A stretch of DNA of 64,000 nucleotides from Cryobacterium sp. PH29-G1 (GTDB lineage Bacteria > Actinomycetota > Actinomycetes > Actinomycetales > Microbacteriaceae). A program made the position numbers and the translations under genes. Below the pieces are notes generated by a model that was given only the letters and a program-made list of their open reading frames with translations, did no database searches and was not told the origin of the DNA. Numbering within the stretch: position 1 is the stretch's first letter; each line of letters opens with the position of its first letter. Where the stretch lies: assembly GCF_030063365.1 (NCBI RefSeq), contig NZ_JASISY010000002.1, positions 186,001-250,000 of the forward strand. Direction: 5' to 3'. This document shows positions 50,849 to 57,394 of this stretch, in pieces.

Positions 50849-50929
50849 GTGCGCAAACCCAAAGCAGTCCGCTACGAGCACGCCAAACCGGACGATCTGG
50901 TGGCGGCGGGGATGCTGGGTTCGAGGTAG
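50849..50929 (+). pseudogene. Short transposase-like fragment
   Basis: The plus strand reads VRKPKAVRYEHAKPDDLVAA then GMLGSR and TAG. R-Y-E-H-x-x-P-x-D-L resembles the start of the IS481-type DDE domain (usually RYEHxxPGDLxHxD), but the catalytic Asp is not reached. Too short to be sure. Confidence 0.25.
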
Positions 50930-51160
50930 CTCGTGCGGGTCTGAATGACAGTCCGGTCGGCTGGCGGGCGCGGTGAAGGGGCAGAGGATGTCGGGATGGT
51001 GGTTCCGGTTAGGACGGGCGGGGACAAGCAACGCAACAGCGGTTGGGCCAGCGATTCTCGGATTGACTATGAAGATAAGACCGGCAGCGAGCAGAACGAC
51101 CAGCCCGACTTTGAGTGGACCGCTCCCTGAGATGGAGTTCTGAGCTTCGTCTTCACCTGA

Positions 51161-51394: not shown

Positions 51395-51685
51395 ATGGCC
51401 GCAGCACGTAGGCGTTTCACCCAGGAGTTCAAGGACGAGTTATGCCGCGAGGTGATCAACACCTCCAAACCGATCAAGGACGTCGCCACCGCATATGGCG
51501 TCGGCCCCGAGACGCTCCGCAACTGGCTGGGCAAATATCGCGAGGCGAACGGCGGCACGGAAGCGGATCTAACGGTCTCGGAACGGGCTCGTCTGAAGGA
51601 GCTCGAGCGGGAAGTTCAGGAGCTGCGAGCGGAGACCGCCTTCTTGAAAAAAGCCAGCGCTTACTTCGCGCGGGAGCAGCGGTAG
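51395..51685 (+). CDS. IS3-family transposase OrfA (copy A)
   Basis: The 96-residue protein has a helix-turn-helix (RRRFTQEFKDELCREVINTS, KDVATAYGVGPETLRNWLGK) and a leucine-zipper-like C-terminus (LKELEREVQELRAETAFLKK ASAYF). It binds the IS ends and, by programmed -1 frameshifting in intact elements, joins with OrfB. The sequence is intact and 94% or so like copy B by eye. The partner orfB here is broken. Confidence 0.9.
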   Translation: MAAARRRFTQEFKDELCREVINTSKPIKDVATAYGVGPETLRNWLGKYREANGGTEADLTVSERARLKELEREVQELRAETAFLKKASAYFAREQR

Positions 51686-52277
51686 TGAGCAAGTACGAAT
51701 ACATCGACTCCCAAAAATCTGAGCCCACCAACAAGAATTCGGTGGTGAAAATGTGCCTCTGGCTGGCCGTGTCAACGTCCGGTTTCTATCACTGGGTGAC
51801 ATCACGTACATCCACACCTGGCAAGGGTTCATTTATCTGGCCACGGTCATCGATTGCTACTCAAAGAAGGTCGTCGGCTGGTCCATCGCCGATCACATGC
51901 GCACCGAGCTCGCCGCCGATGCCCTCCGCAACGCCGCCGCGACGACCCTGATCGAGCCTGACACGATCTGGCACTCCGACCGCGGCAGCGTGTATGCCTC
52001 GGCCGAGTTTCGGGCACTGGTGGCCGGGCTGGGGATGCGGTCCTCGATGGGCCGTACGGGCGTGTGTTGGGACAACAGCATGGCCGAAAGTTTCTTCTCG
52101 ATGCTCAAAAACGAGCGCGTATACCGCACTGCTTACGCGACGAAGTCACAAGCTCGAAGCGACGTCATTCGGTATATCGAAGGGTTCTACAACAGCCGCC
52201 GCCGGCACTCCGCGCTCGGTTACAGAAGGCCCAATGAAGTCCACTATGGTTATCAACAGCCAGCATTGGCAGCGTAG
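51685..52277 (+). pseudogene. IS3-family transposase OrfB (copy A), internally deleted and frameshifted
   Basis: Starts MSKYEYIDSQKSEPTNKNSV from a GTG overlapping the orfA stop and runs to STSGFYHW, then jumps in another frame into GDITYIHTWQGFIYLATVID. About 300 bases present in copy B (the segment with GTYGYRRIHADL and the rest of the HTH_21 region) are missing at the junction near 51796. The DDE residues D (VIDCYS), D (WHSDRGS) and E (NSMAESFF) remain in the second frame, but no single protein can be made. Confidence 0.85.
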
Positions 52278-52325
52278 AAGAATCCACTAATTCCGCTGTC
52301 CGAAATGCCCGCGGCAGCTCACTGA

Positions 52326-52484: not shown

Positions 52485-52616
52485 TCGGGGGAATGCGCAT
52501 AAGGGGCCACACACCAGTGTAAAAAAGGTCCCTCGAACGGGGGCTGTTTTCGTGATTGATGTTGCGCCACAGTTGGGCCACCGAGCTGTCCCGTGCTCGC
52601 CATCGATCGGCGTGTC

Positions 52617-55600
52617 ATGCAACGACGCAACATGCTCTTTGTCTTGTTCACAGCTGTTGCGGTCGCGCTGACTGCCACGAGCATCCCGGCCATCGCGTTG
52701 ACCGTCCCGGCAGCTCCAGTGGCCGCGGTGAGTGATCCGAATATTGTTGAACCACCACCGACTCAGTTGGATAAGGCGTGTGCACCAGCAGCGGGTGCCG
52801 CAGCGGGTGATGTCGCTGCCTCGAACCCGCCCAGCTCGGGTTGGGCACTGCCGTCAGCAAATCGGAGTGTCAGCTCCGGTAGCGCCACGTCGCGGGCATC
52901 TTCGGGGACCGTGGTGGGGGCTCCGGGCATTGGAGCATTGCCCTACTTTGGCTTCGACACGATCAACCTGTCAGCGGATACCGCCGCGCAGGTCAACCTC
53001 GGCAACGGCAATCTATTGGTCACGTCGAATGACGGGGTGTTGAACGGACCGGCTCTGGCTGTTCGTAACGACCGTTTCTACAACGGTCTCTCTCCGTCGG
53101 CGGGGTCGTTTGGGGGTGGCTGGTCTTCACCGCTTTCCGCCGCTGATGTCGGCTTGAAGGTCACATCGTCGACGGCGACGTTCTCGGGCCCGACTGGGTT
53201 CACTGCCGTATTCACCCGCAGTGGCACCAGCTGGGTCGCCCCGGCTGGGTTTCGCGCCACCCTGGTCGATGGGCAGTACACGCGTACGTTGACGTATAAC
53301 CAGACCGGTGAACAGTATGTGTTCAACCTCAACGGGTGGATTACGAAAAATTTGAACCGGAACGGTAAAGGGACCACATTCACCTATGACGTGTCCAGCC
53401 AGCAGGTCACGACGGTGACCGAAGCATCGGGCCGGTCCTATTCGATCATGTGGCAGAGCATCGGTGGTGTCGACGTCATCAGTTCGATCACTGACTCTGC
53501 CGGTCGGGTCACCACGTATACGGCCAATGCCAGTGGCCAGTTGACCCGGGTGGATGCGCCGGCGGGGTTCTTTGAGCAGTACACCTACGACAGTGTCGGC
53601 CGCCTCGCCACCATCGTCACGATCGGGACCGGCAGTGCGAGCACGAACACGCTCGTGCAATTCGGGTACGACAGCTCCAGCCGCGTGAGTTCGGTCAAGC
53701 GCGGCCTGAATTCAACGCCGACAGTGTTCCTCTCCACCAGCAGCTACACCTACACGAGTGGTCAGACGACCGTCACTGACGGGCGCGGTAAGACCGCTAC
53801 CTTCACCATTGATACCGCGGGCAGGGTCACAACAGCCACCGATGCTCTCGGCCGGAGCCGGTCGAAGACGTGGACGGCCAACAGTGACGTGGCGACATCA
53901 ACGGATGCGCTCGGCACGGGGCCGGGCAACACGACGACGTTTGCGTATGACGCGTTGAACAATGCCGTCGGGGTGGCCTTGCCCACCGGCGCGGCGGCCA
54001 GTGCCGCCTATGCGACCGGGGTCGGCTGCACAGGAACGGGCGGCACCACGTTCCAACCGAAGTGTTCCACCGACTCCGCCGGAGCCGGGAAAGCTTTCAC
54101 CTACGATGCCAAGGGCAACCCGACCAAAGTCACCGACACCACCACCGGTGGCACCGGATCCGTCCCTCAGCAGTTCACCTATGAAAATAGCGGCAGTGTC
54201 TGTGGCGGTTTCGATGGCCAGGTATGTACGACGAAGGACGGCAATAACAACACGATCAGTTATGCCTACGACGCGGATGGAAACTTGACCTCGGTCACTC
54301 CGCCGTCACCGCAGGGCGGGACGACGTATACGTATGATTCCCTCGGCCGAGTCCTGACCGTCACCGACGGCAACAATGCCACTTCCACCTATGCGTATAA
54401 CGTCCGTGATGAAATCGTCTCGAGCACCTTCCAGGGCGGGCAGACGTTCATCACGCAGTATTTTGGGAATGGCCTCAAATCCAAGGACACTGACAGCACC
54501 GGGCCGACGGCGTATTTCTACTTCGACGCTCTCGGACGCACGCGCAAGCAGGTGGAGGTGGTCACGGCGACTCGCACAATGGACTTCACCTACGATGCCG
54601 CAAGCAACATCACCAGCTTCGACGACAGCTCCAACTACCTCACCTCCTACGTCTATGACGACGCCAACCAGCTCGTGCAAATCTTGGAAACTGGCGGCGT
54701 GTGCCCCACCGGAACCGGATCTCCGGCCAGCTCCGGGTGCATCAAGATCAGCTACAACGCCAACGGCGCGGAGACCCTGCGCACCCTTCCCGGCAACGCC
54801 ACCGTCACGACCGTGAACGATGCTTCCAGTCGCCCGACCCGCATCACAGCGAAAGACACCGCCGGCGTCGTGAAAGTCGACATCGGCTTCTCCTATACGG
54901 CAGTGGGTGGCACGGGCGCCACCGCGGACCGCGTCACCATCCAGACCCGCACCAGCTACTTGGAGACCGGGATCACTGCCGGGGCTGTTACCAGTTACAC
55001 CTACGACTCGCTCAACCGCCTCAAAACCGCGATCGAGAAAAACGGAGCGACCGCCAGTGCGTCCTGGGCCTACACCTATGACGCCGCCGGCAACCGCACC
55101 GCGCAAACCCGCACCGGCAGTACCGGATCGGCGGCGGGAACGGTGACGTATACGTATAACGCGGCCAACCGCCTCGCCAGCACCAATACCGACACCACCA
55201 CATGGACGTATGACGGTGCCGGGAACCAAACCCGGAACGGGCAAACCGCGCAGACTGCCGCCTACAACTCGCGCGGCGCCGTCACCGCCATCGGTGCCAC
55301 CAGCTACACCGCCTACGGGCAGGGGAACACACAGCAGCTCACCAGCAGCAACAGCTCGACGACGTTCCAAAACTCACCGCTCGGACTAATTGGTGAGAAC
55401 CTGGGTGGTCCCAGCCGGGCCTTCACCCGCACCCCGGATGGGCAAGCCCTCAGCACCCGGCTCAGTGGCGGGTCCCGATACTATTACGCCCAAGACAGCC
55501 TCGGCTCAGTGGTGGGCATGTTCGACAAAACCGGCGTGTATCTCGGCGGCTACTCCTACAGCCCCTACGGAGAAACCCGAGCCGTCAGCACCGGAAGCGC

Positions 55601-55979
55601 GCTGACCACCAACCACCTCCGCTACATCAGCGGCTACTACGACACCGGATCAGGACTTTACAAACTCGGTGCTCGCTACTACGACCCCAGCATCGGCCGA
55701 TTCACCCAATACGACCCATCCGGACAAGAAACCAACCCCTACGGTTACGCCGGCTGCAACCCCATCAACGCCAAAGACCCAAGCGGCCTAAGTCCTTGCA
55801 GTGACCTGAAGCTATTTCAAAATGCAGCGGCCGGATTCACATATGGAGCGGGCGTCGTCGCCGGCATAGCAGGTGTGACTGGCGCAGCCCCGGTCGCAGC
55901 CGTGGCAGTCGGTGTCGGAATTTCGACTGGAGCTGGCGCGCTTATCGCGGGATACATTTACGATGGGACGTGCTCATGA
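52617..55979 (+). CDS. RHS/YD-repeat secreted protein with hydrophobic C-terminal tail (candidate polymorphic toxin)
   Basis: About 1120 residues. A signal peptide follows the ATG at 52617 (NMLFVLFTAVAVALTATSIP, AIA); a GTG at 52593 is also open. A Ser/Pro-rich linker and N-terminal beta domain are followed by many YD repeats (YTYDSVGRLATI, YAYDADGNLTSV, YTYDSLNRLKTA, YTYNAANRLAST). The RHS core closes with YYYAQDSLGSVVGMF, GYYDTGSGLYKLGARYYDPS and GRFTQYDPSGQETNPYGYAG, then AKDPSG. The 63-residue tail after DPSG is Gly/Ala/Val-rich with two Cys and ends IAGYIYDGTCS. Such tails are the toxic part of RHS proteins. A tiny two-TM gene overlaps its stop. It is cargo between two inverted IS3 copies. 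Confidence 0.85.
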   Translation: MQRRNMLFVLFTAVAVALTATSIPAIALTVPAAPVAAVSDPNIVEPPPTQLDKACAPAAGAAAGDVAASNPPSSGWALPSANRSVSSGSATSRASSGTVVGAPGIGALPYFGFDTINLSADTAAQVNLGNGNLLVTSNDGVLNGPALAVRNDRFYNGLSPSAGSFGGGWSSPLSAADVGLKVTSSTATFSGPTGFTAVFTRSGTSWVAPAGFRATLVDGQYTRTLTYNQTGEQYVFNLNGWITKNLNRNGKGTTFTYDVSSQQVTTVTEASGRSYSIMWQSIGGVDVISSITDSAGRVTTYTANASGQLTRVDAPAGFFEQYTYDSVGRLATIVTIGTGSASTNTLVQFGYDSSSRVSSVKRGLNSTPTVFLSTSSYTYTSGQTTVTDGRGKTATFTIDTAGRVTTATDALGRSRSKTWTANSDVATSTDALGTGPGNTTTFAYDALNNAVGVALPTGAAASAAYATGVGCTGTGGTTFQPKCSTDSAGAGKAFTYDAKGNPTKVTDTTTGGTGSVPQQFTYENSGSVCGGFDGQVCTTKDGNNNTISYAYDADGNLTSVTPPSPQGGTTYTYDSLGRVLTVTDGNNATSTYAYNVRDEIVSSTFQGGQTFITQYFGNGLKSKDTDSTGPTAYFYFDALGRTRKQVEVVTATRTMDFTYDAASNITSFDDSSNYLTSYVYDDANQLVQILETGGVCPTGTGSPASSGCIKISYNANGAETLRTLPGNATVTTVNDASSRPTRITAKDTAGVVKVDIGFSYTAVGGTGATADRVTIQTRTSYLETGITAGAVTSYTYDSLNRLKTAIEKNGATASASWAYTYDAAGNRTAQTRTGSTGSAAGTVTYTYNAANRLASTNTDTTTWTYDGAGNQTRNGQTAQTAAYNSRGAVTAIGATSYTAYGQGNTQQLTSSNSSTTFQNSPLGLIGENLGGPSRAFTRTPDGQALSTRLSGGSRYYYAQDSLGSVVGMFDKTGVYLGGYSYSPYGETRAVSTGSALTTNHLRYISGYYDTGSGLYKLGARYYDPSIGRFTQYDPSGQETNPYGYAGCNPINAKDPSGLSPCSDLKLFQNAAAGFTYGAGVVAGIAGVTGAAPVAAVAVGVGISTGAGALIAGYIYDGTCS

Positions 55980-56152
55980 ATCTGGGACTTTCAAGTGTCG
56001 GATTTGTAGTGATGCTTGTGGGAGCCGTGATGTTTTTGATTGGACGTAGACATAGACGACGTGAGACAAATCTTAATGTTGTGAGCGGATTTGGAATTGT
56101 CCTGTTCTTATTAGGGGTAGCAACTCTCGGGTTAGGGTTTATCGGTCGATAG
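55976..56152 (+). CDS. Small two-TM protein, putative immunity protein to the RHS tail
   Basis: The ATG at 55976 overlaps the RHS stop (ATGA). The 58-residue protein has two membrane helices (about 5-23, VGFVVMLVGAVMFLIG, and 36-56, VVSGFGIVLFLLGVATLGLG) joined by a basic loop (RRHRRRET). Small membrane immunity proteins of this design protect against membrane-active toxins. Translation coupling to the toxin gene supports the role; nothing else identifies it. Confidence 0.6.
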   Translation: MNLGLSSVGFVVMLVGAVMFLIGRRHRRRETNLNVVSGFGIVLFLLGVATLGLGFIGR

Positions 56153-56211
56153 TGATTCGACAGGGACTGACCTGCCGCGGGCATTTCGGACAGCGGAATT
56201 AGTGGATTCTT

Positions 56212-57104
56212 CTACGCTGCCAATGCTGGCTGTTGATAACCATAATGGACTTCATTCGGCCGGCGATAACCCAGCGCGGAGTGCCGGCGTCGACTGTTGT
56301 AAAACCCTTCGATATAGCGAATGACGTCGCTGCGAGCTTGTGATTTCGTAGCGTATGCGGTGCGATAAACACGCTCGTTCTTGAGCATCGAGAAGAAGCT
56401 CTCTGCCATGCTGTTGTCCCAACACACGCCGGTGCAGCCCATCGAGGAGCGCATCCCCAGGCCGGTCACCAGAGTCCGGAACTCAGCCGAGGTATAGACG
56501 CTGCCGCGGTCGGAGTGCCAGATAGCGTCCGGCTCGATCAGGGTCGTCGCGGCGGCGTTGCGGAGGGCATCGGCGACCAGCTCGGGTGCATGTGATCGGC
56601 GATGGACCAGCCGACGACCTTCTTGGAGTAGCAATCGATGACGGTGGCCAGATAAATGAACCCTTGCCAGGTGTGGATGTACGTAATATCGCCGACGAAT
56701 TTCACTCCGGGGCGGTCAGCGGTGAAGTCGCGTTTGACGAGGTCGGGCATGTTCGCGGCCGCCTTCGCATCGGCTTCGGTCGTGATGCGGAAGGGCCGTG
56801 GTTGGCAGGCAACAAGGCCGATTTGGCGCATGAGTTGCCGCACCAGCTCGGGCGAGCACTCGGTCTGTTCCGCGGCGAGGTCGGCGTGAATACGACGATA
56901 GCCATAGGTGCCTTCGGACTCCTCGAAGAAGTGCTGAATCCGCGCGATCAGCGCCTCGCGGCGGGCCGACGTCGCGGACTGGGGCCGGATTGCCCAGTGA
57001 TAGAAACCTGACGTGGAGACGGCCAGCCAGAGGCACATTTTCACGACCGAATTCTGGTTGGTGGGCTCAGATTTTTGGGAGTCGATGTATTCATACTTGC
57101 TCAC
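56212..57104 (-). pseudogene. IS3-family transposase OrfB (copy B), one-base frameshift
   Basis: From GTG 57104 the frame gives MSKYEYIDSQKSEPTNQNSV through GTYGYRRIHADLAAEQTECS, KFVGDITYIHTWQGFIYLAT (first D) and VVGWSIADHM. It then shifts: near 56590 copy B reads HMHPSWSPMPS where copy A reads HMRTELAADAL, because one base is missing. The other frame continues LVADALRNAAATTLIEPDAI, WHSDRGS (second D), NSMAESFFSM (E) to the stop at 56212. A functional transposase would need translational recoding. Confidence 0.85.
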
Positions 57105-57394
57105 TACCGCTGCTCCCGCGCGAAGTAAGCGCTGGCTTTTTTCAAGAACGCGGTCTCCGCCCGCAACTCTTGAACTTCCCGCTCAAGCTCCTTCAAACGA
57201 GCCCGCTCCGACACCGTCAAATCCGCTTCAGTGCCGCCGTTCTCCTCGCGGTATTTGTTGAGCCAGTTCCGGAGCGACTCCGGGCCCACGCCGTACGCGG
57301 TGGCGACGTCCTTAATCGGCTTGGAGGTGTTGATCACCTCGCGGCACAGCTCGTCTTTGAACTCCTGGGTGAAACGCCTACGTGATGCGGTCAT
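57104..57394 (-). CDS. IS3-family transposase OrfA (copy B)
   Basis: The 96-residue protein (MTASRRRFTQEFKDELCREV, INTSKPIKDVATAYGVGPES, LRNWLNKYREENGGTEADLT) has the same HTH plus coiled-coil layout as copy A with a few substitutions. Its stop overlaps the GTG of orfB (TAGTG), the normal IS3 arrangement. Confidence 0.9.
   Translation of the reverse strand: MTASRRRFTQEFKDELCREVINTSKPIKDVATAYGVGPESLRNWLNKYREENGGTEADLTVSERARLKELEREVQELRAETAFLKKASAYFAREQR

Follow-up and report, generated by a model that had tools for sequence, protein, structure and literature searches.

A candidate two-cysteine membrane toxin tail on an RHS protein of Cryobacterium sp. PH29-G1 and its small two-transmembrane partner

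We analysed a window of 64,000 nucleotides from Cryobacterium sp. PH29-G1 (contig NZ_JASISY010000002.1, positions 186,001 to 250,000 of the forward strand, from a genome of 3.8 Mb in 31 contigs); positions below are those of the window. It contains an RHS gene whose product ends in a hydrophobic tail of 63 amino acids (aa), followed by an overlapping gene for a 58-aa protein with two predicted transmembrane (TM) segments. Tails of this kind are modular, the short ones are associated with small TM genes and carry a pattern of two cysteines and a central proline, and a tail swap is seen between close relatives. Reading the pair in the window as a toxin and its immunity protein is well supported by comparison, and we consider it highly probable. 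The best explanation overall is that the tail is probably a stapled two-helix toxin that depolarises membranes and that the cationic 58-aa protein confers immunity to it. Taken singly, a membrane-depolarising mechanism is likely, and a disulfide-stapled hairpin is a good guess at the form of the putative toxin, favoured by a small degree.

The RHS gene (52593..55979, plus strand) encodes 1128 aa from its first start, a GTG; an ATG at 52617 is possible too. Its core ends with the motif DPSG-x17-DPSG (55713..55787), and the variable tail, the putative warhead, occupies 55788..55976 on the same strand (LSPCSDLKLFQNAAAGFTYGAGVVAGIAGVTGAAPVAAVAVGVGISTGAGALIAGYIYDGTCS), with the stop codon TGA at 55977-55979. 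The tail is rich in Gly, Ala and Val, its cysteines are Cys4 (55797-55799) and Cys62 (55971-55973), and Pro35 lies near their midpoint. The putative immunity gene (55976..56152, plus strand) starts with an ATG at 55976 that overlaps the RHS stop (ATGA); a GGGA at 55965..55968, recognised by eye, is its possible ribosome-binding site. Two hydrophobic 19-mers were scored in the 58-aa protein, on either side of a basic loop, RRHRRR (56045-56062). The GC content is 62% in the RHS core, 59% in the tail and 44% in the 58-aa gene. The preliminary description of this DNA, made without database searches, had reported a 63-residue Gly/Ala/Val-rich tail after DPSG with Cys near both ends, a next gene starting inside the RHS stop and a tiny two-helix membrane protein with a basic loop, and each of these points proved exact. 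It had also named no family for either protein, in agreement with our scans: neither the tail nor the 58-aa protein (best weak E 0.014, far short of cut-offs) belongs to a family above the Pfam or NCBIfam cut-offs, and neither has a PHROGs or PADLOC match at E 0.01. Moreover, the 58-aa protein was unmatched in plasmids at E 1e-3 and in PDB sequences at E 1, and a pattern search in genome contigs matched 593 stretches, none of which was confirmed as a relative.

Related loci (numbered L, their genomes G) were collected with the last 96 core residues as query, which gave matches in 13 of 57 genus genomes and 37 loci in the genome-contig collection. A family search with core end and tail found at least 101 of 398 genomes, and 40 further regions were taken in rank order among the matches listed. 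With a hidden Markov model of the core we obtained 138 open reading frames (ORFs) that extend past it (four loci, L018, L054, L058 and L102, had no core match), and merging tails identical over residues 4-28 left 113 distinct tails. Nine were dropped, six being shorter than 40 aa (L005, one of L010, L038, L041, one of L075, L118) and three being open or having too little room (L015, one of L048, one of L087). The 104 tails counted comprise 62 short ones (40-115 aa) and 42 longer ones. An ORF was accepted as partner if it was 40-130 aa long, contained two or more hydrophobic 19-mers and started between -62 and +120 from the RHS stop; if there was more than one such small ORF, we chose the one richest in hydrophobic segments, and long tails and controls were handled alike.

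A two-TM ORF was found directly after 49 of the 62 short tails (window included) versus 2 of the 42 long tails (Fisher p 5e-15); these and the other survey counts are not fully independent or unbiased, because the searches started from one core, tails came from among the matches listed, some long tails are closely related and the most hydrophobic ORF was chosen. With the same criterion, two-TM ORFs occurred at 79 of 1968 random positions. Among the ends of frames of at least 200 aa in the window and L005, many of which are probably not genes, the single match in 71 was the window's own RHS gene, which leaves none at the 70 others. The association agrees well with the earlier proposal of a membrane-active tail followed by an immunity-like gene, both of which remain predictions. 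When one hydrophobic segment in the next ORF was sufficient, the counts were 54/62 for short and 6/42 for long tails. The check suggested earlier was whether a small TM gene always comes after similar tails; this was so for all 25 tails of the class to which the window tail belongs (class A, below) and for the 54 short tails just mentioned, with eight exceptions. Five of these have a neighbour with one TM segment (L021, L035, L039 and L072, frames of 31-39 aa) or with three (L055, a frame of 149 aa, beyond the length limit). L057, from a proteobacterial metagenome-assembled genome, has a 92-aa frame with zero segments at the threshold used, and no partner was found for L082 and L103, the latter resembling a truncated long tail. 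One-TM frames of about 31-39 aa with basic residues follow the short tails of L021, L032, L035, L039 and L072 and are possibly a minimal form of immunity protein.

After the pattern had been formed, two of 42 plasmid records with related RHS genes were examined, and both fit it. A Microbacterium plasmid (L130) carries a class A tail (LAGWQC..ATESCQ, without proline) and a 68-aa two-TM frame at +11; a Streptomyces plasmid (L131) carries a class B tail (see below) and a 70-aa two-TM frame at +14. Both small genes are absent from the PLSDB gene table, a table known to be incomplete. Five partner proteins and five tails were scanned for families: the tails gave no hits, and one partner gave a sub-threshold match to HisKA_4TM (E 4e-4).

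The long tails bear on a different origin of the short ones. On the same chassis, ten of 43 long tails were scanned and enzymatic ends were found, namely Ribonuclease (L013), PT-HINT (L015, L095, L109) and a GH-E nuclease (L122); L094 gave a weak match only, and four gave none. The tail in the window could be the remnant of a pre-toxin translocation segment that has lost its enzymatic domain, and the small TM gene could be incidental or a translocation helper. A hydrophobic stretch does occur in the first 150 residues of 30 of the 42 long tails, Gly-rich two-Cys stretches stand ahead of PT-HINT in L095 and L109, and when short tails were compared with the starts of long tails, z≥5 was reached in 1.5% of pairs (30 of 2016), versus 0.35% after shuffling. 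However, domain loss would not yield dozens of intact short frames adjoining a two-TM gene, which only 2 of 42 long tails have, and the class A tails are narrow in length and share a Cys-Pro-Cys pattern. We therefore regard a remnant as quite unlikely. The long tail of L121, like those of L095 and L109, opens with a Gly-rich hydrophobic two-Cys stretch, and through these starts the class B tails may be linked to pre-toxin segments.

The toxin reading of the short tails is strengthened in its details by their cysteines. Exactly two Cys occur in 48 of the 62 short tails, where 16.3 are expected from random scatter (maximum 31 in 20,000 draws). In class A (n=25, window included), the first Cys lies in the first 21 residues and the last no more than 13 residues from the end; the Cys are spaced by 44-72 residues, the tails are 53-78 aa long, a two-TM ORF follows each of the 25, and the partners are basic (median isoelectric point 11.1). 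A Pro lies at most five residues from the Cys-Cys midpoint in 18 of the 25, compared with 5.9 expected, and none of 10,000 shuffles reached 18. The other two-Cys tails (class B, n=23) have their Cys elsewhere, mostly internal, and are followed by a two-TM ORF in 18 cases and by an ORF with at least one segment in 20. GxxxG was mildly enriched in class A (60 versus 47.2, p 0.02), and so was GxxxGxxxG (p 0.03). When the tail of the window was modelled alone with AlphaFold2 (AF2), helices were predicted at residues 3-31 and 33-61; residue 32, where the chain breaks between them, is equidistant from Cys4 and Cys62 to within a few residues. The output gives two helices without their packing, so that the hairpin is something we infer, together with the disulfide, from the Cys and Pro regularities and the predicted helices.

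Tails and partners behave as exchangeable modules. The RHS C-terminus varies abruptly past the DPxG core end, both between the window and its relative G044 (a genome of the same genus) and among the 113 distinct tails. Eight loci, seven of them short-tailed, each contain two or more different tail modules (at least 40 aa long) on complete or partial cores. Strongly similar tails had strongly similar partners in five pairs versus 0.74 by permutation (p 0.0014). In 43 of 45 two-Cys modules, the GC content of the partner gene was below that of the core end.

BLASTN of the window against G044, whose locus L005 is a scrambled array, gave three blocks: the RHS gene start (52562-52674, 93.8% identity), the RHS core end (55362-55780, 93.1%) and the last six tail codons with the 58-aa gene (55959-56167, 90.0%). 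No match to the tail was obtained in G044 between 55780 and 55959. Instead, the core of G044 continues out of frame into a different hydrophobic tail, followed by a 63-aa two-TM gene. The homologue of the 58-aa protein is preceded by a fragment whose terminal residues (..FYDGTCS) are those of the window tail, and further small TM frames of about 54-68 aa adjoin it. This arrangement resembles the usual exchange of tail/immunity cassettes that leaves orphan immunity genes, and may have arisen in that way. In all, some five small TM frames lie among fragments of RHS cores and tails at positions 9374-11559 of L005 (minus strand). One of them (63 aa, MPRRQLFF..) resembles a frame of G005 (MTRKQLFR.., L020), as expected of retained orphan immunity genes.

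The same data bear on the idea that the tail anchors the RHS protein in the membrane or signals its insertion, with the two-TM protein as a partner in docking or export. In favour of this, the hydrophobic C-terminus adjoins a small membrane protein and the RHS protein looks exported. An anchor should be conserved, yet the tails differ after near-identical cores (93%), tandem tail modules stand behind partial cores, and nuclease ends occur on the same chassis elsewhere. We consider this explanation very unlikely.

Several observations weigh against a depolarising hairpin toxin with its own immunity protein. Only in the window was the exact combination of tail and 58-aa gene seen intact; the tail was matched in none of the 99 other genomes and G044 keeps about six of its codons, and the 58-aa protein was matched in one of the 99 (G044, 83% identity) and in none of 397 genomes of a family-wide draw. 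Between the window and G044, the ratio of non-synonymous to synonymous substitutions in the 58-aa gene was 0.58-0.88, depending on the method, a sign of weak or changing constraint on its sequence; its frame is intact and the substitutions are mostly conservative. Similarities of tails and of partners were uncorrelated overall (rho 0.02), and at z≥5 there were 25 pairs of similar tails with dissimilar partners and 30 pairs of similar partners with dissimilar tails. Structurally, the AF2 model of the tail is of low confidence (pLDDT 70.1, pTM 0.39) and helix packing was unseen in its output. Foldseek gave zero PDB matches to it, and the tail sequence had just two poor matches in PDB sequences, to a transporter (E 0.28) and a phage tube protein (E 0.3). 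In the AF2 model of the RHS protein, the last 89 residues, including the tail, are disordered. The evidence for a glycine zipper is slight, and a looser small-residue zipper gave p 0.07 in class A.

The remainder of the RHS protein looks like a delivery shell. RHS_repeat (E 1.1e-32) and DUF6531 were matched in a Pfam scan of the entire protein, which gave no PAAR match to E=1, and the NCBIfam model Rhs_assc_core (TIGR03696) matched residues 989-1066 (E 1.4e-21). Read by eye, 52617..52706 (plus strand, end approximate) encodes a probable Sec signal peptide (MQRRNMLFVLFTAVAVALTATSIPAIA...), and signal-like N-termini resembling it occur in homologues (e.g. L028, L031, L034), so that the protein is probably exported by Sec. 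The AF2 model of residues 40-1128, made from an alignment of 16 sequences with the window included, is a beta-rich shell (mean pLDDT 75.3). A Foldseek search with it ranked RHS proteins of type VI secretion systems (T6SS) first; Tse5 (8cp6) was at rank 8 (E 8e-41), with a TM-score of only 0.36. Neither Asp of the DPSG...DPSG pair varies in the alignment, and by analogy with other RHS proteins we take this pair to be a likely aspartyl autoprotease motif. The PDB entry 8uxt of Tse15 is entitled a toxin cleavage mutant, with two Asp mutated.

We propose that these parts together make up a polymorphic toxin module of the contact type. Its RHS shell would be exported by Sec, as its N-terminus suggests, and would cleave itself at the DPSG core end, as the conserved Asp pair suggests, and thereby free the 63-residue tail. 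Outside the cell, a disulfide between the two Cys may staple the glycine-rich helices together, giving a hairpin that turns close to the central proline. The hairpin would then enter the membrane of a neighbouring actinobacterium and dissipate its membrane potential, and the 58-residue cationic protein, translated from the overlapping ATG, would block it in the membrane of the producer. Alternatively, a membrane-active tail might inhibit a specific membrane protein or act inside the target cell rather than form a pore. Ionophores of contact-dependent inhibition (CDI) require specific inner-membrane receptors, according to an excerpt of PMC11630599, and the present data do not separate a pore from an inhibitor. 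The tails are very diverse, a conserved polar motif was unseen by eye, and the two Cys suggest folding outside the cytoplasm, all of which argue against this alternative, which we regard as unlikely.

The pair lies beside insertion sequences. An IS3-family element with a broken orfB frame (approximately 56168..57394, minus strand) ends about 16 bp beyond the 58-aa stop codon. A second IS3-family copy lies upstream of the RHS gene (ORF limits 51395..52277, plus strand), and comparison of both copies revealed an internal deletion of its orfB. The end they share is marked by a 33-bp match of 56168-56200 to 52289-52321. The two copies therefore flank the RHS gene in opposite orientation, with orfB damaged in both. 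In Cryobacterium luteum (L024), a similar IS3 orfA is found about 300 bp past the RHS stop. A 44-bp stretch at 50904-50947 (minus strand) is 77% identical to RHS DNA on the other strand (54938-54981, E 0.001) and is perhaps debris of another RHS element.

Several known systems resemble the predicted module in part; the comparison draws on excerpts of the papers cited. Its mode of action would be that of Tse5/Tsi5 or of CDI ionophores, but on a Gram-positive chassis. Tse5 of Pseudomonas aeruginosa is a T6SS RHS effector that causes membrane depolarisation, and two TM regions are predicted for the cognate immunity protein Tsi5 (PMC9637101). The RHS shell (8cp6) has a counterpart in the window, and so, putatively, do the depolarising C-terminal toxin and the two-TM immunity protein; the 58-aa protein is two-TM too. 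However, Tse5 is Gram-negative and T6SS-delivered, whereas the tail of the window is just 63 aa long, has two Cys and belongs to a chassis that bears a Sec-like signal and gave no PAAR match. A PDB sequence search with the window tail gave no match to Tse5; the two tails were not compared directly. CDI ionophores are very diverse and form polymorphic depolarising C-termini, and CdiI proteins are predicted two-helix hairpins (PMC11630599). Their chassis is CdiA and they comprise a predicted five-helix bundle and an entry domain, in contrast to the RHS chassis, 63 aa and two helices (low-confidence AF2) of the window. Zhang et al. (2012; PMC3482391) described W-TIP as a small hydrophobic two-TM toxin domain and proposed pore former, in the excerpt from proteobacteria only, and listed Imm-CdiI and Imm17 as the two immunity families with two TM segments, immunity proteins being called cytoplasmic with few exceptions. 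W-TIP has a conserved W, TIP and RxxR, none of which is present in the window tail, which lacks W and R altogether. Imm17 combines two TM segments with WxW, whereas the 58-aa protein is without W and gave no Imm17 match to E=1. Export by Sec, autocleavage and killing are reported for WapA of Streptococcus suis, and WapA of Bacillus subtilis is termed a carrier of tRNase toxins (PMC12704120). Such WapA-type proteins of Bacillus and S. suis share with the window an RHS/YD protein with a Sec-type signal, a variable C-terminal toxin (a putative one in the window) and a putative immunity gene; the window-type tails differ in being hydrophobic and having two Cys. The excerpt on EsxX of Staphylococcus aureus describes a depolarising C-terminus with a glycine zipper, on an LXG chassis exported by a type VII secretion system. 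The window tail likewise is a predicted depolarising C-terminus, on a different chassis.

Circular bacteriocins of the AS-48 type are Gly/Ala-rich, helical, membrane-active peptides with a compact multi-helix fold and small cationic immunity proteins. The tail and its partner resemble them in size, in the Gly/Ala-rich helical peptide and in the small basic membrane partner. They differ in that the bacteriocins are head-to-tail cyclised peptides from a precursor gene of their own, whereas the tail is the C-terminus of a 1128-aa protein with ends that could be joined by a disulfide. The low-confidence AF2 model of the tail has two helices. Since Foldseek gave no match to this model, the likeness remains an analogy. 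For a Bacillus plasmid, a protein like circular bacteriocins was proposed in 2014, and the excerpt of that account (PMC4243335) mentions no RHS protein.

The pair had been announced as new. Depolarising RHS and CDI tails with two-TM immunity proteins are known in Gram-negatives, and the pair in the window is one of dozens; the two-Cys class in Gram-positive actinobacteria, on the other hand, looks new. No earlier account of two-cysteine hydrophobic tails on actinobacterial RHS proteins was found in the literature, as covered by titles and the starts of abstracts, with subscription journals mostly outside coverage. Gram-positive RHS (WapA) toxins are known chiefly for nuclease-type ends.

Beyond the window, there may be a large class of stapled hairpins in actinobacteria, a generalisation for which we see somewhat less than an even chance. 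Each would consist of Cys, about 28 hydrophobic Gly/Ala-rich residues, a central Pro, about 28 further residues and Cys, on an RHS shell exported by Sec, and would be paired with a tiny immunity gene of its own, which encodes a cationic two-TM protein and may be missing from gene tables. The oxidised hairpin would form only extracellularly and attack the membrane from outside, so that entry into the cytoplasm would be unneeded, and it would be the disulfide-closed counterpart of circular bacteriocins, mounted on a shell for contact delivery. The pattern of two Cys and a central Pro behind an RHS core is a simple finder where family models are absent, and it predicts what the products of a class of tiny two-TM genes, basic proteins, would do. 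If this is true, there are dozens of membrane toxins in actinobacteria that are very small (class A: 53-78 aa), with candidate antidotes often near 60 aa, pairs that would be small enough for synthesis and pairwise testing.
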